Source of the DNA: Plasmodium malariae
Lineage: Eukaryota; Apicomplexa; Aconoidasida; Haemosporida; Plasmodiidae
DNA: 64,000 nt
Direction: 5' to 3'
Assembly (NCBI RefSeq): GCF_900090045.1
Contig: NC_041783.1
Coordinates: 1,932,001-1,996,000, forward strand
Shown here in pieces: positions 30,066 through 52,502 of this stretch. The translations under genes and the position numbers were made by a program. Positions within the stretch are counted from its first letter, which is position 1; each line of letters opens with the position of its first letter. Under the pieces are notes generated by a model, which saw only the letters and a program-made list of their open reading frames with translations, made no database searches and was not told the DNA's origin.

Positions 30066-33000
30066 ATGAAAAAAATAAAATGCTATGGGCGTTTTTTACC
30101 AGAATCGAAATTAGACAAAAACAGAGAACAGGAAAAACATTACTTGAGGAAAGAAAAAGTTGTAAGCAAGATTTACCACGAAAATGTATCAAATTTGAAA
30201 ATTTATAATGATATATTTAACAAACGAGTAAAGAATATATCTGCGGGTGTGAGTAGCTTACTTATTATAATAAATAATGATGAAAATGATTCGGATATGT
30301 TAACATTAGGAGGTAATACATCCTTAGGAATTGCTTTTTATATTATTAATGATTTAGTATATTGTAAGAAGGTGGATTATAAATATGTTATTATGTTTAG
30401 CTATTTTGAAATAATAAAAAATAGGGTTACGGATAAACTCAAAAAATATATCTTACTTGAAAATTATATGGTTGATGTTGATAGGTATGGGACGATTTAT
30501 GATCAAAAAAATTATGGTAAGGTAATCACTAATAAAGGTAAAATATTAAACTACATGAGTTTGAATTTAGACATTGCTGGTAATAAAAAGAACGAGCTAT
30601 TACGGAACAACAGTAGCAGCACTAATGAAAAGGAGGAGTGTATAAAAGAAGAATGGAATACAATTCTGGCACCTCAAAACTTGGATGATTTTATAAAAAC
30701 CAAAAAAATGGACAAGTTCAAAAAGGGTTATACTAAAAGTAGAAATAGCTGTGTTTGGAATGAGGATGAGGTTAAAAAAATATATTTAAATCATAAGAAT
30801 ATTAAGCATGTGTTTGAATTGCTATATAGAGATAGCAGAAGGGGGATGAAAAGTAGGAAAAAGGGTAGGAGTAAGACAAATGAGACGAGCGAAACGAGCG
30901 AAGCGAAACAAACGAATGAAGCAAAGGAGAGAAAAAAGGGAAAATTCCGCGGAGTAACCTACAAAATATTCGCATTCGACGTACAATCGAGGAAGGAGTG
31001 TCAAAAGGATGAAGGGAATATAAAAAATGGTTCAATAATCATAGTTAGTGTTAACAATGTTAAGAATGCCGATTCGTTTAGAAGCAATTTTTTGTACAAC
31101 TTTTTTGAATTTTTCTTAAGAGTAAAAGAAAAAATGCATTGCAATAGTAACAACATAAACACCTGTTTTCATCATAACAAAACGAAGTCAGCCATAGTTA
31201 AATATTTACAAAATTATTTATGGAAGCAAAGTATGTCTCCTGAGTGTATTTCTACCTTGGATTTCTTTTCTTTTGAATTGAACTTTTTATATATATCCAG
31301 TAATATTAGTAGATATAATAATGTTAATAAATTTATTTATGCCTATTTAAAATACCTGAACGAGTCAGAATATTTCCTTAAATTAAATGGTGCGATGAAA
31401 TATTCAAAAAGTGAGTTTTATAAAATAGAGGAAAATGTCTATATGTTTAAATGTTTATTAAATTATTACAGCAAGTTTAAATTATTCGATAAAGATATGA
31501 ATTGTAGAAATGCAAATATAATGAATATTTTAGCAATTTTAAAATCTTCCATAATATGTAGTTCTGAACTAAGGGAGTCACATTACGGATCTACTGAAAA
31601 TAATATAAATAATATCCTTAATCTTTGTAGAAGTATGTCTGGATCAGACTGTTGTAATCAAATAACTAGAAGCTTTTCCACAGATATAGATAGTAATAGA
31701 GGCCTACCTCCAAATGTAGAAAGAAAATACTTAAGCATGAATAAAACAAAGACACAAGCAAAAAGAAATAGTAACAAATTTGGAGATATCAAAAAAATTA
31801 GTATTGATGATGTGTCAAAGAAGTATATGCAAGAAGAGGAGACAGGAAAATACAAAATACATGTACATGTACAGGATACTCAAGATAAAGTTGAAGAAAA
31901 GCTTGTGCACATGAATATAAAAAGCGACATACAGTGTGATGACAAGGTTCATTTAAACGTAAACTTGTTTAGTAAGGATAAAAGAAGTGATATATACTCT
32001 TTCAACCGGTATGCAACGAATAAGTATTACACAGGAAAGTATGATAAAAAGATTATAAAGAATCATGAATATAATCATATATATAGTGAGGAAGAAAGTA
32101 ATAATGTTAAATATGACGATGTTTTACAAACTAGATATAAACATTCGTTGGAAAATAATAAATCAAGAAGAAATAAAAATGAAAAATGTAAGGAGGAAAA
32201 TATGCACAGAGAGAGTAAAAAGCTCGATAAAATTTTTGATAGTACAAATGAGAACTTGCTAAAATGTGCGATGAATTTGTTTCTTCAAGACGAGGGGAAA
32301 TCAGTACATGTATTTTCAAAAATTGATGATCACAATATAAATCCCTTCTGCTTAAAGAATGCATTAAGAGAAAACAATAGGAAGGAGAAAGAGGAAGAAA
32401 AAGGGAAAGACAAAAAAATAGAGAACGAAAAAGGGAAAGAGAAAAAAAAAGAGAAAGAGAAGAAAATAGAGAACGAAAAAGGGAAAGAGAAAAAAAAAGA
32501 GAAAGAGAAGAAAATAGAGAACGAAAAAGAGAAAGAGAGAGAAAAAAAAATTTTTGATAAAAATATTAACGTATGGAAGAACGATTTAAAATGTGAACAT
32601 GTGTTCAATGACACTATGACGGGGAAGAAGGATTTTGTTAACAGCTATATAAGTAATAAAAAGAGTGGGAAAAAGTTTGTTTTCACTAATACTCTGGGTA
32701 TGGTTTGTTCGCAGAAATCAGCTAGCTGTTCTGATGAAAAAGATGGTAGCTCTGATAGCGCTCGTAGCGTAGCAAAATTTCTAAATAACATTAAAAAAAA
32801 TAGAGAACTTTTGAAAAGCATTTCTTCATTAGATTTAGATTTAAAAAAAGGAAAGAAGAAAGTGGACAACAGAGCAAATATCATATTCGATCAAGTGGAA
32901 AAATGCTTAGGAGATGAGGAAAAAAAAAACAGTGGTAAATGTAAAAGGGTTCTTATAGAGAGAGAGAGGAGCGAGTATCAGAATGAAATTATAAGAGGTG

Positions 33001-36000
33001 AAAATGAAAGGGAAAAGCGAGTGATAAAGAAGCAGAGGGGAAAAAGGAGTGCGAAGCAAGTAGAACAATCAAAGGATTACATGGAGGAGCAATATGAAAA
33101 AGAAAAAAAAAGGGATGTTAATAAATTAAAGAAGAAATTACTTCCAAGTGAAAGAAACAAAATACACCCATCGAATGAAAAAAAAAATTGCATTTTGATT
33201 AATGTTTGCGATAGGGAAAAAAGTCGTTGCTCATCTAGTGCATACAAATTCGATGGTGAAGACATAGGTATAAAAAATGGAGAGAAAAACAAAGAAGATT
33301 ACATTTCACATTTATCTCTAAATAGTTATAAAGATAATAAATTAGAGGAAAATACGAATGGATACAAGGACATTATGAATTCAAAAAGCTGCTTAACTTC
33401 TTGCATTTCAGATGGAAAAGAGAAGGATGAAATTTATAAATCAGTCGAGCCATCGTCACACATGTACTATGTACATAATTCGTTCAATGCCTCCAAGGAA
33501 AATTATAGAAGAAACTACTCCTCTGTGAGTGAAACTATGCTTAGTAATGATGATTATTTTAAGGACAATAAATCAAAAAAGAAAACTGACAATTCAAATT
33601 GGATTACTAACGAATTACTTGAAGACCGAAAAGAAAATAGCGACAACAAAGGAAGCTCTTCTCTTTTTATTAGTAGTTATCAGAATGAAGAAGAGAAAAA
33701 AAAGCGTCTTTTTTTTTTTCAAAAAGGTGATTGCGTTACATGTGAAGGTGGAAAAGGAATGAACGGAGGCGCTAAGATTAGTAAGAGTTCACTGGATTTG
33801 ATTCTATGCAATAAAAAGGAAGAGGAATTGGAGGACAAGGAAGTAGAAGTAGAAGTAGAAGATGTAGAGGTAGATGTAGAAATTGTGAAAGAAGAGAGAC
33901 GTAGAGAGGAAATGAATACAATGGAAGAGGCTGTAGCTTGTAAAAATTGTATTAAATGCGAATGTGCCAATATTACAAAGGAGGGTGAATCTGAAAAGGG
34001 AGGATTATCCCTCACTAGTCACGATTTTTTTCGCGCAATGAGTGGTAGTGCTAACAATGGTGTAATCAGAAAGGGAAAATATTTGAATAAATCTGAGGAA
34101 GAAGCAGATGATAAGGAAGAAGTAGATGATAAGGAAGAAGCAGATGATAAGGAAGAGGCAGATAATAGGGAAGACACCTACATGTACAACTCCCCTGAAA
34201 GTGTGTTTTCATTTTCGTCAAAAAATAAAAATTCTTCAAGTAAAATAAACGACGATTCTATTGGCCAAGTTGTAGAGGAAATTAGGAGCAATTATGTACT
34301 AGGTAGGGCAAGTGGTAGCACAATACTTTTAGAAGAACTCGACAAAACATTGGATGAGGAAAAGGAAGAGGAAAGGGGGAAAACGAAAGAATGCATTCAT
34401 AGGAAAAAGGGCATAAATAAGGGAACTACCAGTGACTCTAACTCAAATTATTCATTTCCATGTTGTGATAGCTGCGAGCTTGACAGCAACAAAATTATAA
34501 CAGAAGAAATTGATGATAGTATACAATTTTATCATAATAATATTAAGAAATTAATAAAAAATAATATAGCATTGTTGAAAAAAAGGCATAAAGAAGATAG
34601 GGACGACTTAGAACTTTTGAGGAAGATAAAATTTGCAAAGGGTATTTTAAACGAATACAATAATTTCCTGTATAATAATAGGAGTGATCAAACAGATAAG
34701 TTTTTATTATTACACGAAATTATTACAAAAAATTATGAACACGTAAATAGGGGAGAAATAAAACAATTAAAAAAAAAGGTACACGATAATTATAATAATA
34801 AACATATAACCACTGGGTTGAACAAAATTACACCAAATGAGAAGCTAAGGAAACATAATGATTGTTCTGAGAATATATCTAGATATCAAGAACTCGGAAA
34901 GAGAAATATTAATGTTGAGATTAAGGAAGATGAAAAAGGGGATGAGAAAAAAACAATGAAGGGAAATAATACTATAGATATGGAAAGAACAAGGAACGAT
35001 ATAAATATAAAAAGAAAGGTTTCAAAAAATTTAAAAGATACATTTGACAAAGATGGAAATTATGAAGTAAAAAAGGAGAAAGAAAAATATGTTCTCATTT
35101 TTGATGAAGATAAAATCGATTGTGATGAATGCATAGGGGGTAGGAGTACATGTCCCAAATGTGAACGCACCTTTTTAAAAAAAAAAAAAAAAAAAATTCA
35201 GAACAGAGGAGCGATTAATGAAATTTGTAGCTTAAACGATTCAAAGGATGAAACGAGGGAGTGTAACACCCGCAGCTATGTAACAGATTTACCAAATTGT
35301 GCTATATCTTTTGAAGATGAAAAATGTTATCCAAATATCTGTTATAAGGATATGGATCAGAATAATAACAGTGACTGTTGTAGTTGTGCCACTACTAATA
35401 GGACAGTTATTGACAATAATGTTAAACTTCCTGTTTATGAAAATAGATGCGCCAATCAGTTTGATGAAATACGCGGAAATTTTATAAAAAAAGAAATTCA
35501 AAATAATTATTCATTATTTGACAAATGTTATAGTACAGGGACTTCTACATCATCAAAGAATAAATATTCCTCGAAAAAGCTACTAATTGGAAAGAAAAGA
35601 AAAGAAAATATATTATCTACACATTGTTATAAAGAAGTGTGTACACCCGTCGAATTTTCAAATATGGTTGAAGGTGAGAACTGTTCTAGGAAAATTAGCA
35701 GTTGTAAAAATTATGAAAGTGCACATATTCGAGATGGAAAAAAAAAAAATGACTTATCATGCAGGGACAGTTTTAATGCAATTAATAAAAATATAATTCA
35801 AAGAAATAGTTGCTTACTAGGCCCTACTCATGCTTCATATTTTGTTGAAGAAAATATGGTTCCCCCTTACACTGACAAGGAAATAATAAAAGGTAGAAAA
35901 GAAACTAAGGCAGTTCATAATATAGAGCGTATAATAACAAAAGAAGAAACAACTAAATATAATGACAAGAGAGGAATGAAAAGTGAGAGAACTTCCCTTA

Positions 36001-36702
36001 ACAGAAATATGCATTTATATTCAACTGATGATTGTAAAAGTGAGTATATATACAAGAGTGAAAAAGATGACGATAATTTTTTTTTACTTTGTAAAGAGGA
36101 TGAAAACATAGGAAGGTATAAAAAGGACATATTTCGTAAAATAAAATTCAAGGAGAGAATTCTAAAAAAGGCTGTAAAAGAGGAGAAAGAGAAATTGACT
36201 GAAATTCGACGTAAAAAAGAAAAATTACATGCTTTTATGAGCAATTCGATAAAGAAATATAATAACAGGGAAAGGGAGTTTGCTATGGTGAGAAGCATGA
36301 TTTTAAAAATAAAATATTTAGAGGAAAAGAAACAAAATAAACTTAAAAAGATAACGAGTGAACTTTTAAAAATAGACCCTTTAAAAGAAAGAATGTTAAG
36401 CTTGTGCATTAGGAAAAACCATATGCTTAAAATAAAAAAATGTGAAAAAAAGGGGCACACAGATACTTCTACTTCCTACTACTTGAATGGCGAACATGGT
36501 ATAAAAGATAGCAGCAAAAATGTGTGCAAAGGTTATCCGTACAATTTAGACAAAAACAGATTGGCAAAAAAAAATGACAATTTAAATGCGGAAAATGAAA
36601 TAGAAACAAATGTGGAATATTTTTTTGAAAGGATGTTACCAGCGAGTCATAAAAAAAATAGCGCACAGCCATTCCGTGATAGGAGTAGTAACAGTTATAA
36701 TG

Positions 36703-36740
<38 letters not shown>

Positions 36741-39700
36741 TATACATATGCACAAAAGAATTGTGGACAATTTTATGTCAACTCAAATTTTAAAAGCAAA
36801 TATAAGTGCAACGCTAATTATAATATAGGTGACGAAAATAAGAGGACACAAAATTCCATCATTTTTTCAGACTTGTCTGAAAATTTTAAAACACAAAATA
36901 AAAGTAAAAATAAAAATAAAAAAAATAATAATGAGAGTGATAATGATATTGATAACAATAAAAATAATAACAATAATAATAAAAATAATAACGATAATAA
37001 TAAAAATAATAACGATAATAATAAAAATATTAACAATAATGAAAATAAAAATAATTCACCCATCAGCTGTGGAAATGTAAAATCATTTGCGTCCATATTT
37101 TCCAAAGCAAAACTAGATGAAATTGATTTAAATGAAAAAAATATAAACAGTTCGGACATAATTCTGAAAAGAAAAAAAATTGCCCATAATATTACATCAC
37201 AAGATAGTTATATAAAACGCAACGAGAAAGAAATAGATGAAGCCTATTCACGTGAACATAATACATTAGAAGGAAAAGAAGAGAACAGTACTATAAATAA
37301 CAGTAGTGCACATATTATTAATAAACAAAAGGAAAAAAAAAAAATTTTATTAGCTGCAACTCGGGAAGAGACTTTTAATACCTCCGAAAATTTCATACAC
37401 AAAATAAATAACAGAAAAGAAACTGCTGATAATTGTTGTATGTTACATCTAAAAAATTTACATACTAAAGAAGAGGAAGCAACTATTTTGGAGCACCTCA
37501 AAAGCAGTGAAGCTAGTGAAGATATTTTAAATTCTGACATTCATTCGAGGTGTGTAAGTAGCAGGGGTACATATAGGACTTGCACTGGCAGTCGATCGAG
37601 CACGTTAGTTAACACACGCAATAATAGTAAACAAAATAATAATATAAATAAAAGGATTACAAGTGTTAGTAAGAACCTATTGAACGCTCCCATATATGAA
37701 GAAGGACAAAGTGGAAGAACAAGTAACACTTCATATAATTTTTATGATAAATTTGTTAGGGCCAAACATAGGAGTGTAAATAGGGGAAACAATCATAAAA
37801 AGGTTGATAAAGACAATATCAGTGCCAATTCGCTATCAGGGGTTTCATCCAATGGTTTTCATTTCATTACATATAAGAATCAAAATATATTAGCGAATGA
37901 AGAAAGTGCTGAAGATACAAATAATTTTAAGATAGGACTGGATATACCTTTCCATGTGCGTGATAGAACTGACAGAATAGAGAAAAGGGCACTGAGGCGT
38001 GCTGACAGAACTTTCAAGAGTAAAATTAATAATTCTTGTAAAAAAAAAAAAGACTCAAATATAAGTCGCAAGGGGAATTGCATCCGTAGAGTAAGTTCAG
38101 TGGAAATAAGGGGAGAAGGAACAGAGAACGTGCAGGAAAGAACAAAGAGAGCTGTAAAAGTCCCCCTAGAGGAAAATCCTAACGCTGATGTTCGCATATC
38201 CCTTAATATGATAAACAAACAAATGAATGAATCAAAAGATAATAAATGGCAAGGAAAAGGAATATCTCATAAGAGGTATCAAAAGGAACAGATACCTTTT
38301 GAATACTCATTAAGGAGATATAATAATTTTGATAATTCAGAGCCAAAATATGTTCATCCGTATTTTGTTCCCTGGTCGAATGGTAGTTATGAAAATGTTG
38401 AGAAGACAGGAAACAACCATGTAGCACAGATAAAGCGGAATGGCAATATAAACGTGAGCTATAAAAACAGAAATTATAATGAAAAAGGAGAGGGGAAAAA
38501 AAAGCTCCATTATGAATACTGCAACACTGGTTATATGGATGGTCATGAACTCATAAACAGGGGAAATAATGCCAGGTCAATTCAAAGTTCCATAGAAAAG
38601 GAAATTTTGGAAAAAAAAAATAAAATTAGCTGCAGTAATAACAAGACCGGTAATAGCGATATACACAGTAATAACGATAGATGCAGTAATAATGATAGAC
38701 GCAGTAATAATGATAGACGCAGTAATAACAACAGCATGAGTAATAACGATAGACGAAACAGTAACAAAAACGTTGAAATGATTAGAGTAAAGACTACCAT
38801 TAGTGGACCTAAGGAAACTCTCATCCCATGTATTAACTATGACACAAATAATTATAATATTAAATTAGGGTGGTGGGATTTCGGGGAGAAGTTTAAGCTA
38901 CTTTCTAATATTGAAAAATGTAAAGAAAATATTAAAGAAAAATATTACAAAAATAGAAATAATTGTAAAAATAGATCATTAACTACATCAACTAACAAGT
39001 ATTTTACAAAATTTCTACCAAATGAATATCTGTACGTGCCCGTAACTAACAATAATATTTTTAAGAGTAAAAATTCGCTTAAAATTAAGAGTAATGCTGT
39101 AAGTGACTTTCAAAAATTAAATTTGAGACCTATAACAGGTTTTATACAATCATATAAAAAAGAAAAACAAAGACAGAGTAAAGTACCCCGTGCTGTAATT
39201 AAACTATCCAGAATCCCTTATGTTACTAGTGATTATAGTAGGCGTCGATATGAGGAAAAACCTGAAGGAAGGCGAGGGTTAAGTATGGGACAGGTAAAAC
39301 TCCTATCAGATGCACAAGGGTCGAATTTACGTAATTCTTCCGGATTCCTCGCTAAGATATCGAAGAAATTAAGAGGGAGCCACAACAGTAATTGCAATAA
39401 TAACAGCAGTAATAATTGCAGTAATGATAACAGAAATTGTAACTATCATTATAGTTCTAGTGTTAGAGGTAGTGATAGCGGTAGGGGTAGTGATAGCGGT
39501 AGGGGTAGTGATAGCGGTAGAGGTAGTGATAGTGATAATAATAATAATGACAAGGATCCTCATTATTTTGGGAGGCACGAATCTGAGTCCAAAGATATAC
39601 TCTTTAAATGCCGAGCGAAGCAAACACACGCACTGTCAAGCGATCACATATACAAAAAAAAAATGAAAAATAAGAATAAAAACATGATCGTGAATCCACG

Positions 39701-41063
39701 GTTGAATAATATTATATACGATATTAATAGAGAAAAATACTGTTCTAATAAATATGAAGAAACACCTAAAAACTTTCAAAAATATAAGAAAATGTTGGGC
39801 AATGAATCCCATATCGATGGTAGTCTACGCACAAAGAGCAATGGAAAAAGAACCTCACCCGCTGTCAACAAATTTTGGAGTTGTCCAAGCGAAGCGAATC
39901 ATTCAGTACAGTCGCTAGAAGCAGAGTCGTTAGAAGCAGAGGCATTAGAAGCAGAGTCGTTAGAAGCAGAGTCGTTAGAAGCAGAGGCATTAGAAGCAGA
40001 GTCGTTAGAAGCAGAGTCGTTAGAAGCAGAGGCATTAGAAGCAGAGTCGTTAGAAGCAGAGTCGTTAGAAGCAGAGTCGTTAGAAACGGAGTTGTTAGAA
40101 ACCAAATCGTTAGAAGCCGGGTCCACTTCAAGCGAAGGAGATAAATGTTCACTTCGTAACAAAAATTCAAAAGAATTAACTAAAAAGTTCAATAAGGAAA
40201 ATAAAAACAAGAAAGAGGAAGAACGCTTGAATGAAAAAATATGTAACCCCACTTCATCATACTATAGGATGATACACAAAGAAGGAAGAAATATGCATAA
40301 TAACAACATTTCATATAGCATATCTTCATTAAGTAGTCAAAGTGAATCATCGCTGATTAACAGAATCAAACGTTACGACGAAATGGGACCTAATGAGCAA
40401 ATTAACGAACGTGACGTATTTATTAGGTATGAAGAAGATAATCAGATTCCGAAAATTAAAACTGCTGTAAATTGTAAAGGCATACATTTAAAGAATAAAA
40501 AATATTGCGCTGCTTGCATTCCCAAGGATAGCACAGAATACTGTAACATGTCCGGAGGGGATTATATAAATAAGGATGCAGCAAAGAGTGAAAGAGTAAG
40601 CAGTGGAAGAGTAAACAGTGAGAGTATATGCAACGAACGTATAAACATTATAAATAATGAGAATGAAAATAGTGAAAATATAAACAGTGAGGGGGCAAAC
40701 AATGAATACACAAATAGTGAATACAACTTAACTCAAAATTATCCTCAAATAAACCGCAATACCAGTTTAAATGAAAATTATAATAATTACCCAGATGAAG
40801 GGATCTCGGAAGAAGAAATATGTAAGAGATCTTCTGCTTCTATCAGTGAAAAACAGAAGGATTACTTAAAAAATACTAGTTATAATGAACATAAAAAATA
40901 TGGTTGTAATACGTTTCAGCATAAATTAGGTCATACTAATAATAATCAGTACATGGAAGCACGAAATAAAAGAAGCCAGCATTATGAAGCACAAGATAAG
41001 AACAAGTACGACAAAGATTATTTGGAAAAGGAATATGATGCATATTTTTATGATAGTCATTAA
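30066..41063 (+). CDS. 3,665-aa protein with degenerate (nucleotide-site-less) kinesin motor domain
   Basis: Residues 1 to about 400 can be laid on a kinesin motor in order: IKCYGRFLPES (first strand, IKVxxRFRPLN), KIYNDIFNKRVKNISAGVSS (helix before the P-loop), LGIAFYIINDL (after it), YVIMFSYFEIIKNRVTDKL (SYxEIYNExVxDLL), VTYKIFAFDVQSR near 296-309 (switch I region), NGSIIIVSVNNVK near 321-333 (switch II region), NKTKSAIVKYLQNYL (SKLTRLLQDSL) and SPECISTLDFF (TLSTLRFA). The P-loop GQTGSGKT, switch I SSRSH and switch II DLAGSE are all replaced, so ATP hydrolysis is not expected. Downstream: Lys/Glu and Asp/Glu repeats, a helical block near 1480-1590, a CDEC-x6-CPKC zinc-ribbon-like motif near 1686, a coiled coil near 2020-2120, K11 near 2213, Asn-rich repeats, and a domain near 2986-3050 shared with the gene at 43482. 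Probably a cytoskeletal scaffold; inferred. Confidence 0.75.
32390..32550 (+). repeat. Lys/Glu-rich 45-48 bp repeat (EKGKEKKKEKEKKIEN)
   Basis: Three imperfect copies of a charged 15-16 residue unit in the kinesin-like protein, purine-only on the coding strand. Such blocks form single alpha helices or charged linkers. Confidence 0.85.
34100..34172 (+). repeat. 21-bp acidic repeat (EEADDKE)
   Basis: Four copies of Glu-Glu-Ala/Val-Asp-Asp-Lys-Glu, ending in a diverged ADNRED, inside the kinesin-like protein. Confidence 0.85.
36703..36736 (+). repeat. 34-base uninterrupted A tract in coding sequence
   Basis: Codes about eleven consecutive lysines in the kinesin-like gene, with the frame kept before (NSYNE) and after (NIYTYAQKN). 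A second coding A tract of about 20 is at 35177-35196. These contrast with the two genes at the left of the window whose frames break at shorter A tracts. Confidence 0.9.
36905..37055 (+). repeat. Asn/Lys/Asp repeat (NNNNKNNND)
   Basis: AAT/AAC-rich repeat with an 18-21 bp period (Asn-Asn-Asp-Asn-Asn-Lys) in the kinesin-like protein. Confidence 0.85.
38640..38770 (+). repeat. 18-bp repeat (SNNDRR)
   Basis: About six imperfect copies of Ser-Asn-Asn-Asp-Arg-Arg/Cys in the kinesin-like protein. Confidence 0.85.
39465..39535 (+). repeat. 18-bp repeat (RGSDSG)
   Basis: Four copies of Arg-Gly-Ser-Asp-Ser-Gly, an RG/SD-type repeat with many possible phosphorylation sites, just after the domain shared with the neighbouring giant protein. 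Confidence 0.88.
39910..40125 (+). repeat. 15-bp repeat (SLEAE/ALEAE)
   Basis: About fourteen copies of a 15-bp unit (TCGTTAGAAGCAGAG or GCATTAGAAGCAGAG), coding Ser/Ala-Leu-Glu-Ala-Glu. Copies form a higher-order 45-bp pattern of S-S-A. Near-identity between copies implies recent expansion; the encoded pentapeptide favours helix. Confidence 0.92.
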
Positions 41064-42222
41064 TATAATAAGAAACATGAATATAAAAGGTATGTAAGTT
41101 TGTCTTGGGCATTTGTACATACGTGAATACATATATATATATATGCATTATATATATGTGTGTTATGATGTATATATATATATATGTGTACCGATAGAAA
41201 TATACGTAAGTACGCACTTCAAACCCATTTACGCAAAAAATTTTCCGCATAGCACTTAAAAATTAAATTGCTGTTACGTTAAATGTTCTACATTTTGATG
41301 AATTTTTTTTATTTTTTATTTTTTATTTTTAAATATTTGTATTTTTATTATTAGTTAATATACTGGGTTATATTAAAAAAAAAATAATAATAACTCTTCT
41401 GAAGTGTTATCATAAGCATAATTTTATGCATAAGGAATGTAGCATTACAGATCCATAAATCAATTTTAATATATACACATATATGACCACATATGTAATC
41501 CATATGCGTATATATATGGATGTATATATGTATACACCTGCGTGGAGAATTATACACATGTGAGCGCTAACTACAGTAAATAAATAAATACCCTACATAT
41601 GAAGTTAGACTAAAAACAAGGTAAGGAATAAAACAGATTGTTCAGTTAGATAAATGTAAAAATTACGGTAATAATAAAAGAGTAGCTAATTATAACCTTC
41701 TCATATTTACAATTATCTGGAGATATTACAGTTAAGCTTAATTATATATTTAGAGAATTCTTTCTGAGAATAATACCAAAAAAAAAAAAAAAAAAGAGCT
41801 ACTATATTTGATCCTATATTTCACTTTATGACGCTGCAGAATACTGCAGCATTTTATGAGAAATTTATTGTAATGATAATGGGAAAATTAAAAAAAAAAA
41901 TAAACATAAAATATATGAAAAATACACATAATATATGAAAAATTAACATAAATTATATTAAAAATATACATAAAATGAATGAAAAATACACATAAAATGA
42001 ATGAAAAATACACATAAAATGAACGAAAAATATACATAAAATGAACGAAAAATATACATAAAATGAATGAAAAATAAACTTAAAATGAATGAAAAATACA
42101 CCTAATATAAAATAAAAAATAGATAAAATACTTTGGAACTATTTTAAAACCGAGTTTTTAGTTTCACTGTATATAAAATTCTTTACTTAATTCAAATGTT
42201 CCAAAAACATTTATTTTATTGT
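41064..42222. other. Spacer after the kinesin-like gene
   Basis: Presumed 3' UTR of the plus-strand giant gene and, at its right end, of the small minus-strand gene. Contains (TA)n runs at 41132-41182, an A-tract at 41779-41796, and a roughly 20-bp minisatellite at 41900-42115. A short inverted repeat with CTGCAGAATACTGCAG is seen at 41835-41850. No gene was built here. Confidence 0.55.
41900..42115. repeat. ~20-bp minisatellite (AATGAATGAAAAATACACAT)
   Basis: About ten diverged copies of an A-rich unit containing ATGAAAAATACACATAAA. Noncoding, in the spacer between the giant plus-strand gene and the small minus-strand gene. Confidence 0.82.
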
Positions 42223-43333
42223 TTATTTTTTTTTTTTGTTGGTAAGTGCAAACTTATCGTGTTATACATGTTATCAAAGAAGAAAAAAAAAAAAGGAAAG
42301 AAAAGAAAAGAAAAGATAAAAGGAACAAAATAACAAGATAACAAAAAAACAAATAATACTTACCAATTTAGACCATCGTTTATACTCAATCATTTGAACA
42401 TGGCCACTTTTTGTATATTTTAATGTAAACTTGTAAGGGCTTTTTACTAAAATTTTTTGTGGACATACAAAAGGGACGAGAGCTTGAGCCTTTTGGGCCT
42501 GAGTTTTTATGTACATATAGAGCCCTAAATAATTTTAGAGAGGATTAGGAAATGCTTGTACATATTTGTTAATATTATGTATATAAATGTAAAAAAGAGG
42601 AAGACGAAGAAACAAAATATATATATCATAAAATGTTGTAAATTGTTTTACGTTATAGTATTTTATCTCCATTGTTGTAAATTATATTCCCATATTTTCA
42701 ATTATTTTTCCATATTTTCAATTATTTTCCCATATTTTCAATTATTTTCCCATATTTTCAATTATTTTCCCATATTTTCAATTATTTTCCCATATTTTCA
42801 ATTATTTTCCCTTATTCTTAATTATTTTCCCTTATTCTTAATTATTTTCCCTTATTTTAAATTATCTTAATTGTTGTAAATTATTTTACATTGTCTGCTT
42901 TGTTCTGCGAGCCTGTCTCACCATCTTATTAAAATTTTCGCTGCTTTTATTTTATTCCAAAAAAAAAAAAAGATAAAGGAATAATTTTTTTTTTTTTTTC
43001 TCAACTTCAGATGAAGTAATTATATTGATTTAATTTTTTTTTATATATTCCTTTATGTGTTCTATTTAATTTTATACTGTAAGGGGAAAACAATTCGCTA
43101 TAATTTTCCCGTAGTCATATTTCGTTTTGTACATGTATATGTGCGTATATATGTATGTACAAAAGTAACACGTGTAAACGGCCTATAATTATGCGTCTCA
43201 GCGTTTCAAGCTGTTAAGTATATAACTGTTAGTCATTAATTTTTTTACAAGTACTCACCTATTTCGTCTACTACCTATTTCTTATGCTACCTACTTCTTC
43301 TGCCTCGTTCTTTAACTCCACTTTCCCTTTGTT
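42223..43333 (-). CDS. Small spliced gene between the two giant genes (central exon firm)
   Basis: Unrecognised. The central exon, 42524-42364, is bounded by acceptor TTATTTAG and a perfect GTAAGT donor and codes from MYIKTQAQKAQ through VCPQKILVKSPYKFTLKY to EYKRWSKL. A phase-0 last exon at 42252-42223 (FALTNKKKK then stop) fits after a 111-nt intron. Upstream, an exon starting at 43333 after acceptor CTCTCATAG can end at 43291 in phase 1 (KGKVELKNEAEEVG) and join in frame; alternatively it runs to a stronger GTGAGT donor at 43258 and is then noncoding, with the ATG at 42516 as start. The upstream intron holds a 20-bp minisatellite. The product would be about 60-75 residues, basic, with a possible beta-hairpin core. 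A further GTAAGT donor at 43469 suggests that the transcript overlaps the first codons or 5' UTR of the plus-strand gene at 43482. Confidence 0.5.
42690..42862. repeat. 20-bp minisatellite (CATATTTTCAATTATTTTCC)
   Basis: About eight to nine copies; the last three change to CTTATTCTTAATTATTTTCC. It lies in the long intron proposed for the small minus-strand gene. The forward open frame across it (FPYFQLFS-type repeats) is a product of the repeat. Confidence 0.9.
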
Positions 43334-43481
43334 CTATGAGAGAAAAATAGGCGTATAAAACAAGAATAAAAGGAAAAATTAAAATAACGAATAAAAAAAA
43401 GGCGACGTCGAATCTTAGTAGTAGTGGTGGGTGAACTAAAAACATAGGATATTCCTGGATAAAACTTACCTACTACTTATA

Positions 43482-46400
43482 ATGAAAAAAATAGAAAAAA
43501 ACCTTATGAGCGATGAAACGAATGAATATAATGCTACATTGAGTGATTGTAATTCTACTGATTACAATTCTAATTACAAGGAGGGGTATAAGAACAGTGA
43601 AAATAATGAAGATACATTTTCAGAAGAGTGTAATACACCAAAATTTGAAAAGGTAATTGAGAACAATAGAATAAATATAAGAATAAATAAAAACGCAAAT
43701 ACTCAAAATTGCAAAAAAGAAAAATGTAAAAGAAAAACAAATAATTCTTTCATTTGTAATCTTGTTAAGAAAATAGAGGATATATATAAAAGACAGCTAT
43801 TGAATAATAATAATAATATAGAACAAAATGATTGTAAGACTCTAATTAAATCTAAATGTAAATGTGCGTCTAAGTGTATGTCTAAATGTAAGTCTTCATT
43901 TATGCTCAACGAATATTTGAACGTTGAACCAACTAACAATGTATTTTATAGACGTAGAACACCAAATGAAACCTTACATAGTAGTGATTTCAATGGTATA
44001 AATTTAAGACCACTTCTAAGATTTAAAAGTCTACACAACTACAATAATAACAATGAAATGAGTAAGCTACAACAACAACAAAAAAAAGCTATTATAAAAA
44101 TATCAAACATAAGTCCATCTCAAAGATTTACAAATAATGGCATTTATACTAATCAATCTACTCCTTATGGTACACCAGCAAATTTTTTTGGGTTACATAA
44201 AAATATAGCTACTGGGAAATTCAATGTTACGAAAAATGAAGAGTGCAAAAATAGCATACTTCCCTCTCCTTATTTCGACATGTATCATTACAGTAACAAG
44301 ACAAATAGAAGGCCGTATCGAAGTAGTAACAATCATAAAACGCCTCCTGGATATGTGAGATCAGTTCGCGTAGTCCCTGGGTGCAATCCCCTGAGTAAAG
44401 TAAAAAACGAGGGTCAGAAAGGAAGAAAATATGAGGGGGAAAATAGACAAAGAAACGAGGAAATCGAAAAAATGAACAATGAACCCAACTGCTCAAGTCA
44501 CAACAATATGAACAGGAAAACAAGCAAAATTTGTTTACATATAAATAGGAGAGGAAGACAAAGCAGAAATCGAAGTAAAAACAACGATAAGGATGAAACA
44601 TGTTCTCATAAAGGATCAGAGGAAGCCAATTGTGATAAAGAGGCTACTCTATTTACTTGCGATCAAAATTTAAGTAATCGTAATAAAAGATTTGAAGAGA
44701 AAAATAAAAGAAGCAAATTTAGAGCTAGTCTATCTGCTCCTCTAAAAATATGCAATAAGTGGAGTAACATGAAGAGAGGAATTCACAACAATTGTGAGAA
44801 TTACGAAAATGGTGAAGCGCTTTTTCCACTAAGCTCTATTAATGGGATATCAATAAATATGAACAAAGGCATAGATGGAAGAGAAATATTTCTTCATACA
44901 CATAACACTAATAGTAGAGTGGGGGAAAAAGATGATGGAAATGACTGTATATTCCCAAGTACACACTGTTACAATATATCTAATAATGAGCACAGATGTA
45001 GAAAGTGCAGGAACAGGAAAAAAAGAGACGTCAAAATGGCATATGGGGGAATACACCCAGCAAACTATGGACTGTCAGTGCTTAACCATGATATTATTGA
45101 GAAGCGGTCGATTCGTAATCCGCAAAATTATAGTAATAGTAATAGTAGTAGTTATAGTAATGGTAACAATAGTCCACTGGGCGATAGGATGAGTGAAAAT
45201 AAAAATATTGGGGTTTACATGGAAAGGAGAAGATCAGCTTTTCCAACTACATTTGATAATTATAACAAGATATATTATTGCGATGGTAAAAAAGGATTCT
45301 TAAAAAAAATTGATGGGAAGAAAATACAGAGAAATGAATCTCATCCTTGTGAACAACATGAAAATGAAAGTAATGACAACGGAAAATATTTAAAAATTGT
45401 GGGGAACGGCACTTCATACATACAAATAGAAGATAATAAATATGGCAAATCGAATAACTCTGGCATTTTTTTGGACCAACGTAACTATAAAAGCTTGCAC
45501 GATGTAAATGACAATAAAACGATCAGATATGCAGAAGGGAAAATGCATGCCAATGAAATGGAAGCACATGAAGAGGGGAAAAAGGAAAAACAAGTAGGAT
45601 CCCTTCACAATAGCAGAATAAGAAGTAGCAGTAGAAGTAACAGTAACAGTGACTGCCGTCAAGACGCGCTGATCCCGATGGATTATAAAATTGTAAAATA
45701 TGTAGACTCGAGGGGCACTAGTAAAAATTGCATAGAGGAGGACGTACATATAGTAGATGGTAAAAAGAGAATACATAATAATTGTATGATTCCCCTTATT
45801 AATGATGGCTCTTTTACAAGAAAATGTAAATATCAAAACTTAAAAACAATTACTATTCGCTCAGATAGCAAGAGCTCATGCGATAAGAAAGGGTTAAGAT
45901 GTAAAGAAGCATGTATAAAAAGTGGAAGACTAAAGTTTAGAAAAGATACCTTTTACAATAACGAAAAAAAATATAATTCGAAGAATAATGAATTATATTC
46001 ACATAAAGATAATATGGAAAAGTTCAAAATAGTACAATGTTATAAGGGGGATGGAGAACATGTGTTACTCGATCCTTTATATCGTTTTCGTTGTGATAAA
46101 CTGAAGGAAGAAGAAACTCTAAACTTAAATAAAATTAAAAGAAATTTAAAAAATTTAACTAGCGAAAAACCAAAGGAAATATGTTCTAATACAATACTAC
46201 AAATACAGGATGAACAAAATGGAATGAAAGCTAAACTGTGCAATGTGGCTGATGCCCCAAGTAATAATAATAATACTAAAATCAGTAGCCAAATGACGAG
46301 ATGTATATCTAAGAGAGCATTACCAAATAGATTAAATAGGCTGGATATTCCAAATATGTATGAAACTGATACGAACAATAATGAAAAAGGAAGAGTTAAT

Positions 46401-49400
46401 GAAAGTTACTACCACAATAAAGACAGCAGCAGCAGATGTTGCTTAAATAGCGGGAGAGCAAATAAACGCATAAGTAAAAGAAATAAATTCGAAGGAAACT
46501 ATAAATATTACTCTAAATGCCCTTTGAAACGTATTTCACCTTCCATGGATGATAATGTAAATAAAAAACGAATAGGCAAAAGGTGTAGAAGTGACTACGG
46601 CTACTGTTTTAACGCAGTTAATGAAGAGCAAAACTATAATTTAAGTGATGGGCATTCAAAATATTCTGACAAAATGGTTGAGGGTAGTAAAAGTATTAAT
46701 AGCTATCATCCTACTTCTAACATGTTCGAAAAAAGAAAAAACAAAAAAAAGGAAGACAAACAATTCATATCGTCCAGAAAAGCGAGGCAGTTAAACAGTA
46801 CTATCAATGAATGTCATAACAAACTATCAGCGGAAAATTGTTATGATAAATACGATATGCAGTGTTCACAAAATGGAAGTAGCTCCGTTCTTGCAGGTGA
46901 GAATGAGCATTCACAAGGAAGTATAGATAAAGGAGGAAGAGAAGGAAGGATGAGAGAAAAAATTATACGGAACGAAGAATTTTTAGGAAAGGAGAAGATT
47001 ATAGATATGGACAAAGTGCTGAGGGAACCTACTATAGGTAGAACTTCTACAAGCATAAGCAAAATATGTGAAACTGATACCTACGGTTGTATAGATGGCT
47101 ATACTAAAAATCAGCTATGTGATATAAGACTATTACGAGGAAATTTTTCGCATCAAGAAAAAAAAAGAGAAATAAAGAACTCATATAGCTACACTAATAG
47201 ATCATCGAAAGGAGGAAATAGCACATTGTATGCAGTGGGAAGATATCCAGTTGTAGTAAAAGATGAACAAAGAGATAAAATGAAAATGTGCAATATTCCT
47301 AGTACGAGAAGTATATATCATGGAAAAAATTCATCCATACACATGAAAAAAAAAAGTATGTTAGGAAAATATAGATCTAATTTGGATGATGTTGAGTTAG
47401 AGCATAATTCATATTCCAATAAAGTACATGAAACGGAAAGACAATCAAATCAAAGGATGAGATGTTATTCCAGTGAAGGTGAGAAAAGTATATGTAATGT
47501 GGATTCAAAATTGGATAAATTGTATTCTACGCAAGATGGATTTTCTAGATGTGTACATAAAAATGGGGGGGCATATAAAAAAGAGAGCACAAAATGTTGC
47601 CACCATAACTCGGACAGTAACAACAGTATGAGCAATAATTTAAAATCAAAATCAAAAGATGATAAATTATCATATATACTATCGAGCAATAAATTTATTA
47701 GAGCACAAAGGAAAAAGAAGAGGGGAGCGTTAGAAGGCTTTGTTTGCGAGGGGGAGTGTAATAACTTATTAAGGAATGGTAGAGAAATGGTAAAGCATTC
47801 GAATGGAGATAAACATGGGGAACCACCCAAAAATGTTTTATATAATGAACATAGAAGTGGTACAAGTGTTAGAAGAGGTGTAAGTGTCAGAAGCAGTAAT
47901 CGTGGTAGAAGCGATAAACGGGGGAACTCCACTGAGCTTAAGAGAAGAATCCCCGATTTAGTTAATCACGAAGAAAGATATTACACAAAAAACAATATTT
48001 ACGATTCTGCAGGGGTAAGAAGTGAAAATGACAGTAAATATCATTCTAATGAAAGAAGGCTTTATCGAAAGGAAAGGAATCATACATATGGAAATGACTA
48101 CAAAGGAAAAAGTACAAAATGTTCAAGTAAGTCCAAGGGTTATGGAACAACAAAATATGCTAATGATATGAATAATAATGAAGAAGCCAAATATAAAAAT
48201 GAAAGAAAAAAAAGAGAGTTTCTACAATATAACAATTCTTACAGTTCTAACCATAGTAGAAATAGATCATTGTATGAGAAAAATATAAGTCCTTGTAATT
48301 CGCATAAACAAGATTTTCATTTTAGCACTTCACGAAATTGCGATAGCAACACATACAACTTGAATGAAAAATTAAGTGATATAAATGTGCCTACTGTGAT
48401 TTTAAAAAAACCAACGATAATAATTAGCGATAATAGTAATGGTGATAAAGAAGAGAAAAAAGAATTTGGGAAAAAAAATATTTTTACTTGTTCGTATGTT
48501 AATGAAAATTATAATCCTAAGGAAAAAGTACATTCTAGTAGTATTCATTCTAAAGAAGGCAACAATATGGATCATTATTACTCATCTGAATTTCATAATC
48601 GAAAAAACGAACTTTCTAAAAATAGGGAAAATATCATTAGCCAAAATGCGCATGAAAAAAGCACAAATGATATTTATAGGATTAACTGCACAAGTAAAGA
48701 GGAAAATGATCTAAGCGTAAAAAAAATGAACAGGTCAAAATTATCATACATCTTATATGATGAGCATGATGATATGGGTAAGAATAATAACAAGTTTTTC
48801 AAATTTAAGAAAAAAAAAAAATATGATACAACCGATGAACAGTTAAGATATAAAATTGCAACATCTACTGGTAGCAGCCATGATAAAAAGGAATCATCAA
48901 CAAAATCAAGAATAATAAACGAGCCCATAAGGGGTGTAAAACGTGAATTATATATTAGTACGAATGAGGAAAATAGATATTTTCGTGAGCAAAAAAATAG
49001 CAGTGTAGAAAAAGATCGTGAATATATAAAAAGCATTAACCGGTCATTAAGTTCTCACCCAACAAATTACGAAAACGTAGAAAAAAATTCGAAAAATGGT
49101 AACTTAAGTATGCATATATATAATAGTAAGAACATTGATAATGTTTTCTTACACAGAGAGAAAAGAAAAAGTAGTGAATCAATTTGTCGAAAGGTTAGCA
49201 GCAATTTAAGGGAAGAGCACATATTTCCAGATACAGAAACTGATCGATCAAAAATATCCTCAAAGGGGAAAAGGAACGCGCAAATAAATACGGATGAGAA
49301 AAAACACATTTGTGCAGATAATTATAACACTATAAATAGTGGACTTTTTGAGGCAGATGAAAAAATTTTACAAACAGATTCGCTAAAAAGAAGAAATTCG

Positions 49401-52400
49401 GGAAAACTCATGGATGGTCAACTAGTAGGAAGCCACCACACAGACAGTGTTGAACGCCCTCTCAGCAGTAACATAGATGTGCAAAATTATAGTAGAAGCT
49501 ATATAAATATGAATAGTAAAAATTTACATATAGGATGCACAAAATTAAGCACTGATGATTATAGAACATTAATATGTAGGAAAAACAGTTTGTCATCTAC
49601 TAGTGCGAATTGTGACAATGAACAAACGGAGGGAAGTAATGAGGACTTTTGCAAAAGTGCAAAAGATATATATCTCAAAAGGCAATCTGAAAATAGCCTT
49701 AAATCACGTAAACAAAAGAGTATATCATATAATAATAAATGGGAAAGTAAAGATAAACTTGGAAACAACATGAACACAAAAAAGGGAAGCGGATTGGTGT
49801 ATCACAAAGAAGGTCTATTTGATGGAGGAACAAACACAGATCTATCTTATCGAAGAAATAAGTACTCTATCAAAAAATGCATAAATTCATTTACTCCTCA
49901 ACATGATAATACAGAGAGGGGAAATCACGATAATACCGATAGATATGACGATATGGATAATTACAGTGATAATTATAATGATAACTACGAATGTATTAAT
50001 AGAGGTGCTTCTTCACAAATAAATGGGGATAAAGAAAAAAGATTGACGGATTCGCATAATAATAACTCGTTTAAAATTAAAAATAAAGGAAATATGAATA
50101 ATCATAGAAGAGGAAAGGGACAAAAAATTATCCATGCGTTACACTATAATAACTATTCCGATTCAGAAAAATGCAAAAGTTCCAACGTCAATACAAGTGA
50201 TCATATATCTAGAGGAAATATTATGAATAGTTCAAGTGAATATTTAAATTGTCATAATACAAATGGAAGTCTTACATCAACAGTGAATAAAGCATTTGAA
50301 AAAAAAAAAAAAATTAGATCAAAATGTAGCTCAGATTCTAAAAGTGTCGAAGAAATACGATATTCTAATAGTAGAGAAAATAAAAATTTTAAAAATAGTA
50401 TATCAGGATATAATAAAGAAATGGAAAACTATGACAACAATAACTTGCGTAATGCACATACAAAACTTTCATCTGAGTCAGACAAAAAGTGGAGTGAAAA
50501 AAAAAGTAAATCAAAAAATATGAACAATTATCACAGTAATATACATACCTGTAAGGCTATGAGCAATGAGAAAAAATTAACAATTAATTCTTTTAATGAA
50601 AATATATTATCTGAAAAGGATGAAGTGAATGATAAGTATTCATTTAATAAGAGCTTAAATTTGAGTAAGACAATGAATAAATTTGATCAAAATAAAGCAA
50701 GCAATAGTATAGTACTAAAAGAAGAAGAAAAAGGAAAAGGTACAAATTGTAGCAATTCCATAATATTTAATTCGGTAAATGGTCAGATGAGCCAAGGAAT
50801 ACAAAACGCATGCAAAGGTCAGGTGATTAGTTATTTAACAGACAATAAGGCCGATAATAACGGAAAAAGAACAGACAATTATAACTGTGCAATGTATAAC
50901 GTGGCAGGAGATGAGGGGAATGCAAATGTTAGTGCAAATGTAGGTAAAAGTGAGAGCCATATTAAAATTCAAACTGAAGGAGATGCAGTAAAAAGGGAAA
51001 TGAGTTCAGAATATTGCCCAATGAATTGTTTTAATATAGGTGAGGATAAAAATATACCAAGAAAACCGCTTAACAGTGTCTTAGGTTTAAAAGAGGCAAA
51101 TGATTACATGAAGAATGAGCTAAACTACTACTTAACTAATAGTATAAAAAATGAAAATGCTCATGAGGACACGACAAAAAAAATGGATTGTACACCCTCA
51201 AGTTTTAATATGGTAAATGATATAAAAAATAGTATACATAATGAAGAGCCTATAAAAAACATATACAATACTAGTAATATTGTAGACAAATCGTATTTTT
51301 GCGTAAGGGATAACAGAGAAATATTTAATACCTTAAACAGTGGTGAAATAAACTGCATACATGAAAATATTAATAACAGTGTTAGTAATGGTAATAGGAA
51401 CAGCAGTGATAACATTGACGGTAACGGTAGTAATAGTAGTAGCGCTAACAGTAATGGCAACAGTGGGTATAGCAGCGTATGCATCAGAAAAAATAATAGT
51501 AACGCCTCCGATATAGCCACTGCACACAATAGCAGTACACCCGTTGGTAGTGGCATTCCTGTGACTACTAATGCATATCCAAATGGTACATGTCTAAGTG
51601 AAGAAAGAGGAAATCCAATCTGTTTTAATGGAAACGGAAATGTATTTACATGTATTAATTCAAATGAAAGAGAACAAATAAAATTTACTAACCCTGCATT
51701 TAGAATTTCAAGTGATAGTGAATTAAGAAAAGGATATCATAATAACGTATATTATGACGATATCAATAGGAATCAAAATGTAAGTGTTCCTCCACTTACT
51801 AGTACTACTAATACGAATAATAGTATGATTTATCAAATGCCCCCCAGTTACCATCTGATGAATAAACGTTCTATATACGGCAACGCGATTAATCCGACGT
51901 CGACGGCGCCTGAACCGGCAACTAGGAGCATTATATTCAATTATAATAGGACTAGCAATAATGATAATAATATTAATAGTGAATATATGAACGGAAAAAA
52001 TATTAGCAGTAATAATATTATCAGTAATAATATTAGCCGTAATATTATTAACGGCAATAATAATGATCCTAATTTAGTTATTAACCCTAGCCTAGTGAAC
52101 GGTAACGGTTCAGGTGGAACGTACTATTATAGTAAAGCCTTCAGTACGGGTAACCTACATAATGAACATTTTAAGAATAATATATTTTACACGAAATTTG
52201 CAAGTAATGATAACAATTATAGCGATAATAAGAACAATATATTACTAAACAGACTTGTGAATAACAATAATGAAGGGAGTGATTCACCTATTAATATCCC
52301 TGAAGCTCAAGGTATACTTGATCCTAATTTTAGTAAAATAAATAATACAGTTCAAATGAATAACACAAAAATGCAAAATATAATTAATAATAATTATGCT

Positions 52401-52502
52401 AATTTACGTAATAACCCTCTTGTTAATAATAATATGAAGAATCAAAATATTTTCTATGATATCAATGGAAAAGCATATATGCACTCTATGGTAACGGCAT
52501 AA
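43482..52502 (+). CDS. 3,006-aa Asn/Ser/Lys-rich protein sharing a domain with the kinesin-like neighbour
   Basis: No named family recognised. Single exon with ATG at 43482 in a short AT-rich context; stop at 52500-52502. Visible parts: a cluster of cysteines near residues 122-138 (CKCASKCMSKCK), then residues 143-211, a domain that begins NEYLNVEPTNN, contains SDF-x3-NLRP and ends AIIKISNIS. The same order and spacing occur at residues 2986-3050 of the kinesin-like protein just upstream. The rest (about 230-2700) is disordered, rich in Asn, Ser, Lys, Arg and scattered Cys, with short basic stretches (RNRKKRD, KKKKKYD). The C-terminal 400 residues are Asn/Ser/Gly/Pro-rich with uncharged low complexity (IISNNISRNIINGNNN) and end YDINGKAYMHSMVTA. 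No signal peptide or membrane helix is seen. A cytoskeletal or RNP scaffold role is possible but not shown. Confidence 0.75.
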   Translation: MKKIEKNLMSDETNEYNATLSDCNSTDYNSNYKEGYKNSENNEDTFSEECNTPKFEKVIENNRINIRINKNANTQNCKKEKCKRKTNNSFICNLVKKIEDIYKRQLLNNNNNIEQNDCKTLIKSKCKCASKCMSKCKSSFMLNEYLNVEPTNNVFYRRRTPNETLHSSDFNGINLRPLLRFKSLHNYNNNNEMSKLQQQQKKAIIKISNISPSQRFTNNGIYTNQSTPYGTPANFFGLHKNIATGKFNVTKNEECKNSILPSPYFDMYHYSNKTNRRPYRSSNNHKTPPGYVRSVRVVPGCNPLSKVKNEGQKGRKYEGENRQRNEEIEKMNNEPNCSSHNNMNRKTSKICLHINRRGRQSRNRSKNNDKDETCSHKGSEEANCDKEATLFTCDQNLSNRNKRFEEKNKRSKFRASLSAPLKICNKWSNMKRGIHNNCENYENGEALFPLSSINGISINMNKGIDGREIFLHTHNTNSRVGEKDDGNDCIFPSTHCYNISNNEHRCRKCRNRKKRDVKMAYGGIHPANYGLSVLNHDIIEKRSIRNPQNYSNSNSSSYSNGNNSPLGDRMSENKNIGVYMERRRSAFPTTFDNYNKIYYCDGKKGFLKKIDGKKIQRNESHPCEQHENESNDNGKYLKIVGNGTSYIQIEDNKYGKSNNSGIFLDQRNYKSLHDVNDNKTIRYAEGKMHANEMEAHEEGKKEKQVGSLHNSRIRSSSRSNSNSDCRQDALIPMDYKIVKYVDSRGTSKNCIEEDVHIVDGKKRIHNNCMIPLINDGSFTRKCKYQNLKTITIRSDSKSSCDKKGLRCKEACIKSGRLKFRKDTFYNNEKKYNSKNNELYSHKDNMEKFKIVQCYKGDGEHVLLDPLYRFRCDKLKEEETLNLNKIKRNLKNLTSEKPKEICSNTILQIQDEQNGMKAKLCNVADAPSNNNNTKISSQMTRCISKRALPNRLNRLDIPNMYETDTNNNEKGRVNESYYHNKDSSSRCCLNSGRANKRISKRNKFEGNYKYYSKCPLKRISPSMDDNVNKKRIGKRCRSDYGYCFNAVNEEQNYNLSDGHSKYSDKMVEGSKSINSYHPTSNMFEKRKNKKKEDKQFISSRKARQLNSTINECHNKLSAENCYDKYDMQCSQNGSSSVLAGENEHSQGSIDKGGREGRMREKIIRNEEFLGKEKIIDMDKVLREPTIGRTSTSISKICETDTYGCIDGYTKNQLCDIRLLRGNFSHQEKKREIKNSYSYTNRSSKGGNSTLYAVGRYPVVVKDEQRDKMKMCNIPSTRSIYHGKNSSIHMKKKSMLGKYRSNLDDVELEHNSYSNKVHETERQSNQRMRCYSSEGEKSICNVDSKLDKLYSTQDGFSRCVHKNGGAYKKESTKCCHHNSDSNNSMSNNLKSKSKDDKLSYILSSNKFIRAQRKKKRGALEGFVCEGECNNLLRNGREMVKHSNGDKHGEPPKNVLYNEHRSGTSVRRGVSVRSSNRGRSDKRGNSTELKRRIPDLVNHEERYYTKNNIYDSAGVRSENDSKYHSNERRLYRKERNHTYGNDYKGKSTKCSSKSKGYGTTKYANDMNNNEEAKYKNERKKREFLQYNNSYSSNHSRNRSLYEKNISPCNSHKQDFHFSTSRNCDSNTYNLNEKLSDINVPTVILKKPTIIISDNSNGDKEEKKEFGKKNIFTCSYVNENYNPKEKVHSSSIHSKEGNNMDHYYSSEFHNRKNELSKNRENIISQNAHEKSTNDIYRINCTSKEENDLSVKKMNRSKLSYILYDEHDDMGKNNNKFFKFKKKKKYDTTDEQLRYKIATSTGSSHDKKESSTKSRIINEPIRGVKRELYISTNEENRYFREQKNSSVEKDREYIKSINRSLSSHPTNYENVEKNSKNGNLSMHIYNSKNIDNVFLHREKRKSSESICRKVSSNLREEHIFPDTETDRSKISSKGKRNAQINTDEKKHICADNYNTINSGLFEADEKILQTDSLKRRNSGKLMDGQLVGSHHTDSVERPLSSNIDVQNYSRSYINMNSKNLHIGCTKLSTDDYRTLICRKNSLSSTSANCDNEQTEGSNEDFCKSAKDIYLKRQSENSLKSRKQKSISYNNKWESKDKLGNNMNTKKGSGLVYHKEGLFDGGTNTDLSYRRNKYSIKKCINSFTPQHDNTERGNHDNTDRYDDMDNYSDNYNDNYECINRGASSQINGDKEKRLTDSHNNNSFKIKNKGNMNNHRRGKGQKIIHALHYNNYSDSEKCKSSNVNTSDHISRGNIMNSSSEYLNCHNTNGSLTSTVNKAFEKKKKIRSKCSSDSKSVEEIRYSNSRENKNFKNSISGYNKEMENYDNNNLRNAHTKLSSESDKKWSEKKSKSKNMNNYHSNIHTCKAMSNEKKLTINSFNENILSEKDEVNDKYSFNKSLNLSKTMNKFDQNKASNSIVLKEEEKGKGTNCSNSIIFNSVNGQMSQGIQNACKGQVISYLTDNKADNNGKRTDNYNCAMYNVAGDEGNANVSANVGKSESHIKIQTEGDAVKREMSSEYCPMNCFNIGEDKNIPRKPLNSVLGLKEANDYMKNELNYYLTNSIKNENAHEDTTKKMDCTPSSFNMVNDIKNSIHNEEPIKNIYNTSNIVDKSYFCVRDNREIFNTLNSGEINCIHENINNSVSNGNRNSSDNIDGNGSNSSSANSNGNSGYSSVCIRKNNSNASDIATAHNSSTPVGSGIPVTTNAYPNGTCLSEERGNPICFNGNGNVFTCINSNEREQIKFTNPAFRISSDSELRKGYHNNVYYDDINRNQNVSVPPLTSTTNTNNSMIYQMPPSYHLMNKRSIYGNAINPTSTAPEPATRSIIFNYNRTSNNDNNINSEYMNGKNISSNNIISNNISRNIINGNNNDPNLVINPSLVNGNGSGGTYYYSKAFSTGNLHNEHFKNNIFYTKFASNDNNYSDNKNNILLNRLVNNNNEGSDSPINIPEAQGILDPNFSKINNTVQMNNTKMQNIINNNYANLRNNPLVNNNMKNQNIFYDINGKAYMHSMVTA

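Follow-up and report, generated by a model that had tools for sequence, protein, structure and literature searches.

The window analysed here is a stretch of 64,000 nucleotides of Plasmodium malariae DNA (contig NC_041783.1 of assembly GCF_900090045.1, positions 1,932,001 to 1,996,000 of the forward strand). It contains two giant genes, referred to below as gene A and gene B, which are co-oriented neighbours on the plus strand, as an earlier note made from the sequence had described them. The two proteins share a short segment that is real and conserved, and that is apparently undescribed in the libraries searched. The features on which the argument rests are as follows, in positions of the window:

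30066-41063, plus strand: gene A, a single open frame of 3665 amino acids that encodes a giant protein with an apparently degenerate kinesin N-terminus
30066-31610, plus strand: the putative degenerate kinesin motor region, gene A residues 1-515, from a five-sequence profile compared with the PDB
30162-30449, plus strand: the part of that region aligned to kinesin-1 residues 48-147, gene A residues 33-128
38766-39245, plus strand: the best-conserved island of gene A, residues 2901-3060
38997-39218, plus strand: copy A of the shared segment, gene A residues 2978-3051
41064-43481, no strand: the intergenic stretch, 2.4 kb, rich in adenine and thymine (guanine plus cytosine fraction 0.242), with tandem repeats
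43482-52502, plus strand: gene B, a single open frame of 3006 amino acids with no Pfam family
43884-44114, plus strand: copy B of the shared segment, gene B residues 135-211

The segment had been reported at residues 2986-3050 of gene A and 143-211 of gene B, and it is present there, within the slightly wider limits listed. Its NEYL block starts at position 39021 in copy A and 43908 in copy B, and its NLRP block at 39120 and 44001. When the window's two copies are aligned with MAFFT, 25 of 72 aligned positions are identical, a measured value that replaces the earlier estimate of about 23 in 65; the corresponding pair from P. ovale (proteins P0007 and P0003) has 21 identities in 69 aligned positions. 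The gap between the TNN and SDF blocks, given in the earlier note as 13-15 residues, is 14 residues in copy B and falls outside that range, at 16, in copy A. Across an alignment of seven sequences, five from gene A and two from gene B, 14 columns hold a single residue throughout (F, NEY, TN, SDF, N, P, I, S, P), and the anchors fixed in both families are NEY, TN, SDF, N-x2-P and I-x2-S. These anchor blocks are short, and the loops between them vary in length. The segment is basic (15 lysines plus arginines against 3 aspartates plus glutamates in copy A, 11 against 5 in copy B), and its hydrophobic fraction exceeds that of about 87-89% of the 70-residue windows in its host protein. In form it could be either a small domain or an extended peptide that bears several anchors.

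Orthologues of gene A were found in four other species (P. ovale, P. coatneyi, P. gonderi and P. inui), and the start and end of gene A match those of these proteins (P0004-P0007); P. falciparum, P. vivax and the rodent parasites yielded no match, which may reflect the database. For gene B the searches, whose length limits together spanned about 660 to 5260 residues, returned one orthologue, P0003 of P. ovale curtisi, with 65% identity across the matched portion of the gene B region that was searched; the lower length range gave 14 candidates, none of them at an expectation value (E) of 10 or less. The motif is kept in all five gene A sequences and in both gene B sequences, and neither its loss from orthologues nor random matching in disordered proteins, both raised in the earlier note, was seen. 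The P. ovale orthologue of gene A is annotated as “conserved Plasmodium protein, unknown function”, and the annotations of the orthologues of both genes read unknown or hypothetical. In malaria parasites it is common to meet giant proteins that are mostly of low complexity and have no known function, and these offer few footholds.

The resemblance between the copies must be separated from what could be picked out by eye from sequences of this kind. One window was read for any striking pair, and the matches listed when whole protein A is compared with whole protein B by BLASTP are dominated by low complexity and do not include the segment, both of which are what a chance resemblance would produce. 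This explanation is nevertheless exceedingly improbable, because the resemblance exceeds chance expectation in shuffle, genome-wide and conservation tests. A profile of copy A built from five species scores 20.0 bits on gene B protein P0002, where the best of 1000 shuffles scores 10.8, and 10.7 bits on P0003, where the best of 1000 shuffles scores 8.6. The reverse profile, built from two copy B sequences, gives the five gene A proteins scores of 11.0 to 15.7 bits; shuffles were made for P0001 and P0007 only, which score 15.7 and 12.0 bits against best shuffles of 5.8 and 5.6. The next-best frame after the partner scores 6.3 and 8.0 bits among 605 frames, which comprise all those of at least 50 codons in the window and nine loci, with the two target frames counted in. 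In the parasite's own genome (33.6 Mb in 62 contigs), single-sequence searches, which score the best candidates only, return the other copy as the best non-self match of each (E 0.00603 and 0.00212), and they detect no third copy.

The same conclusion is reached with profiles of the whole families, which hhalign aligns best at the segment, with a score of 48.8; the highest score among 51 controls made by local shuffling was 29.0. When the segment is excised, the best alignment of the two whole profiles falls to 19.4, below the best of the shuffles. Conservation among gene A orthologues peaks in the island that holds the segment (5.11, next best 4.05), and conservation in gene B is highest at the segment (peaks of 4.65 and 3.85, best elsewhere 4.10). 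Invariance within both families is also commoner at the positions identical between A and B, 14 of 24, than at the 45 others, of which 13 are invariant (Fisher p 0.017).

That no named domain corresponds to the pattern, as first asserted, holds in searches of Pfam and of PDB sequences, where the segment finds nothing better than E 0.0037 and E 0.34 respectively; a profile of gene B has no PDB match at E<=10, and the proteins of genes A and B have no Pfam match. The weak matches that do arise bear on a different account of the segment, in which it binds nucleic acid and has nothing to do with a cytoskeletal role. The segment's basic character is compatible with this, four of its seven members weakly match Topoisom_I_N (PF02919, best E 0.0037), and the best third match in the genome, frame L011 (E 0.07), resembles a topoisomerase I. 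Copy A, at 17.3 bits, lies below the curated Topoisom_I_N cut-off of 25, so that its assignment to this family was rejected, and topoisomerase I is not among the PDB matches of the segment profiles at E<=10. L011 scores only 6.3 bits with the A profile, which is at background, and was rejected as a third copy; moreover, the N-terminus of gene A appears to derive from a kinesin. Nucleic acid binding is accordingly judged very unlikely. Two further matches, to CFAP58_CC (two of seven members, best E 0.035) and to Pectate_lyase_4 (one of seven, E 0.01), were discounted as chance resemblances.

The segments are probably homologous copies that were duplicated locally before the split between the window's species and P. 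ovale. The gene B copies are 35% and 30% identical to the window's copy A, whereas identity within families is 70-77% for A and, over a slightly different stretch, 65% for B; because the similarity between A and B is so far below that within each family, and because P. ovale has members of both families, the duplication probably predates the species split. In a direct DNA comparison of the two genes, the ten matches listed are all short, seemingly of low complexity and away from the segments, and therefore give no sign of a recent duplication.

Tandem duplication and convergence had both been offered as origins in the earlier note. Convergence would require that the same anchors evolved independently in both proteins to bind one partner, for which the short anchor blocks, variable loops and unrelated flanks could be cited. 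It is hard to reconcile with ordered identity at 25 of the 72 aligned positions with similar spacing, and it would not lead one to expect the only two copies detected in the genome to be neighbours. Because those two copies adjoin and are co-oriented, local duplication is the likelier origin, and convergence is distinctly improbable. Tandem duplication of the genes as wholes is a separate matter: in the comparison of segment-excised profiles the two genes are no more alike than shuffled controls, which agrees with the claim that the proteins are otherwise unrelated, and which means that no whole-gene tandem duplication can be recognized. A further possibility is that one ancestral giant gene carried the module twice in tandem and was later split into A and B at the intergenic stretch. 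The copies do flank the gene boundary, copy A lying 614 residues before the end of A and copy B 134 residues after the start of B, about 4.9 kb apart on the same strand. Against this, no similarity outside the segment backs a larger duplicated unit, and no fused relative is among the matches listed, although the length limits used, which end at 1.75 times the query, would not have admitted one of about 6700 residues. A split of this kind is thought unlikely, and local duplication of the module remains the preferred origin.

The second line of evidence concerns the N-terminus of gene A, which judged from its sequence is kinesin by ancestry, with a degenerate motor. The description of gene A as “kinesin-like” thus stands as a statement of the ancestry of its N-terminus, and fails as a statement of motor function, for which the nucleotide-binding motifs are missing. 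At E<=10 a five-sequence profile of the N-terminus matches 17 PDB sequences, and kinesin-1 accounts for the top 15 (E 1.8e-4 to 3.1e-4); a profile of the whole protein has three PDB matches, the top two of them kinesin-1 at E 0.04. The significant alignment covers the first third of the kinesin motor only, where gene A residues 33-128 are co-linear with kinesin-1 residues 48-147, through and beyond the SYFEIY stretch, in the kinesin motor domain (PF00225; for example 1bg2). The order of the later motor elements may also fit kinesin. When the N-terminus is compared by hhalign with a kinesin profile from the parasite's own genome, the score is 30.3, while the best of 100 shuffles reaches 22.7; this profile comprises five motors drawn from eight loci, the other three having no frame of more than 200 residues that passes the motif filter.

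The differences from the kinesin motor domain lie in its nucleotide-binding elements. The Walker A P-loop (GxxxxGK[ST]) is absent from residues 1-540 of all five orthologues, even with a relaxed pattern. The switch I motif SSRSH is found in none of the five gene A sequences and in four of the five control kinesins (L007 lacks it), a positive result that is expected, since the controls were chosen by the same nucleotide-binding motifs. Switch II (DxAG) is not conserved: DIAG occurs once, at residue 169 of P0001, and the other four sequences lack it. The Pfam family PF00225 matches none of the five gene A members (limit E 10, with filters that drop most matches above 0.1), and gene A is not one of the 16 PF00225 matches in its own genome. 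An AlphaFold model of the N-terminus has a predicted local distance difference test (pLDDT) value of 33 and is uninformative; a Foldseek search with it has no kinesin in the best 50 of 353 matches and no match at E<=0.001, the matches listed being mostly ligand-gated ion channels.

Kinesin-derived proteins that have lost motor activity are known elsewhere. Vik1 and Cik1 are pseudo-motors that pair with the active kinesin Kar3, and Vik1 retains the kinesin fold without nucleotide binding and acts as a passive microtubule binder. By analogy, gene A may likewise carry a kinesin fold that does not bind nucleotide and that holds microtubules passively. Divergent kinesin-type proteins are also on record in apicomplexans: PMC9333250 counts nine kinesins in Plasmodium, the divergent kinesin-X3 and kinesin-X4 among them, and gene A may or may not be one of these nine. 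The kinesin ancestry of its N-terminus suggests that Plasmodium may hold more kinesin-derived proteins than that count. The Toxoplasma proteins KinesinB and TGGT1_201230 can be likened to gene A by their description as divergent kinesins in PMC9436416, the one paper listed in searches for a divergent or pseudo-kinesin of this sort.

The best explanation of these observations as a whole, to which we assign a probability of about one half, is that a homologous module was duplicated locally and provides common docking for the two proteins, within a static scaffold that includes a pseudo-motor. The module would have been retained as the remainder of each protein drifted to unrelated, mostly low-complexity sequence, and it would probably dock both giants on the same partner or structure. 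The motor of gene A, having lost its nucleotide-binding motifs, should not hydrolyse ATP or walk, and because of that loss a static cytoskeletal scaffold is the likeliest setting; that A and B perhaps meet at one site in such a scaffold by way of the shared module is put forward tentatively. The full sequence of events that this suggests, in which a kinesin without a nucleotide-binding site became a giant static scaffold in Plasmodium, its most conserved docking module reached a second giant arising next to it by local duplication, and the two otherwise unrelated, disordered proteins today come together on one cytoskeletal structure, is likewise a possibility short of probable. Events of these kinds, local duplication and a pseudo-motor scaffold, are already known; the libraries searched do not contain this instance. 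The segment and the pseudo-motor offer two testable handles on giant proteins that are annotated as unknown or hypothetical.

Several points weigh against this reading. The docking partner is a guess, and AlphaFold2 gives no confident structure for copy A from five sequences (mean pLDDT 35.2, predicted template modelling score 0.20). The probabilities reported by hhalign itself are low, at 28% for the whole-profile match between A and B and 6% for the kinesin match (17% for the first 135 residues), and to these must be added the absence of the segment from the listed BLASTP matches and the small margin of P0003 over its own shuffles. The gene B family consists of two sequences only, and no gene B orthologue appears in the results for P. 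coatneyi, P. gonderi and P. inui, all of which yielded gene A; gene B may be lost, diverged or misannotated in these species. A literature search conducted without a confirmed P. falciparum identifier found no expression, localisation or interaction data for either gene.

Literature on three of the orthologues' locus tags was also sought, and nothing was found. An apical-polar-ring protein had been suspected; passages of PMC9719560, PMC7951837 and PMC13387612 cover other proteins and provide no link, and a passage of PMC10100735 is apparently not about gene A or gene B.

Outside the shared segment, both giant genes contain other conserved stretches and repeats. In gene A, positions 34557-34694 (residues 1498-1543), which contain KIKFAKGILNEY, form the second-highest conservation peak (4.05), and near the C-terminus, at 39910-40117, a 15-base tandem repeat of 13.9 copies codes for units of the SLEAE type; in the P. 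ovale orthologue P0007 the repeat is of another kind, made of SAPHFEG units, and lies elsewhere in the protein. A second well-conserved island of gene B lies at 51051-51155 (residues 2524-2558, RKPLNSVLGL...), with a peak of 4.10 in comparison with P. ovale curtisi. The intergenic stretch at 41064-43481 holds no clear gene when introns are not modelled, its longest open stretch being 113 codons and derived from repeats; tandem repeats occur there at 41896-42121 (unit of 22 bases, 10.3 copies) and at 42680-42865 (unit of 20 bases, 9.3 copies, 95% matches).

Among the other genes of the window, a chromodomain gene (PF00385, E 2.5e-10) occupies 9061-12474 on the minus strand, and is presumably the Plasmodium chromodomain protein, PF3D7_1140700; a literature search based on synteny with this gene did not place the pair of giant genes, and it yielded no P. 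falciparum identifiers for them. A gene at 17760-20345 encodes a CID domain (PF04818, E 1.1e-9), a domain typical of proteins that bind the C-terminal domain of RNA polymerase II, and a minus-strand frame at 26883-27683 has a PUL-domain match slightly below the Pfam cut-off (23.6 against 25.5 bits, E 3.6e-5).

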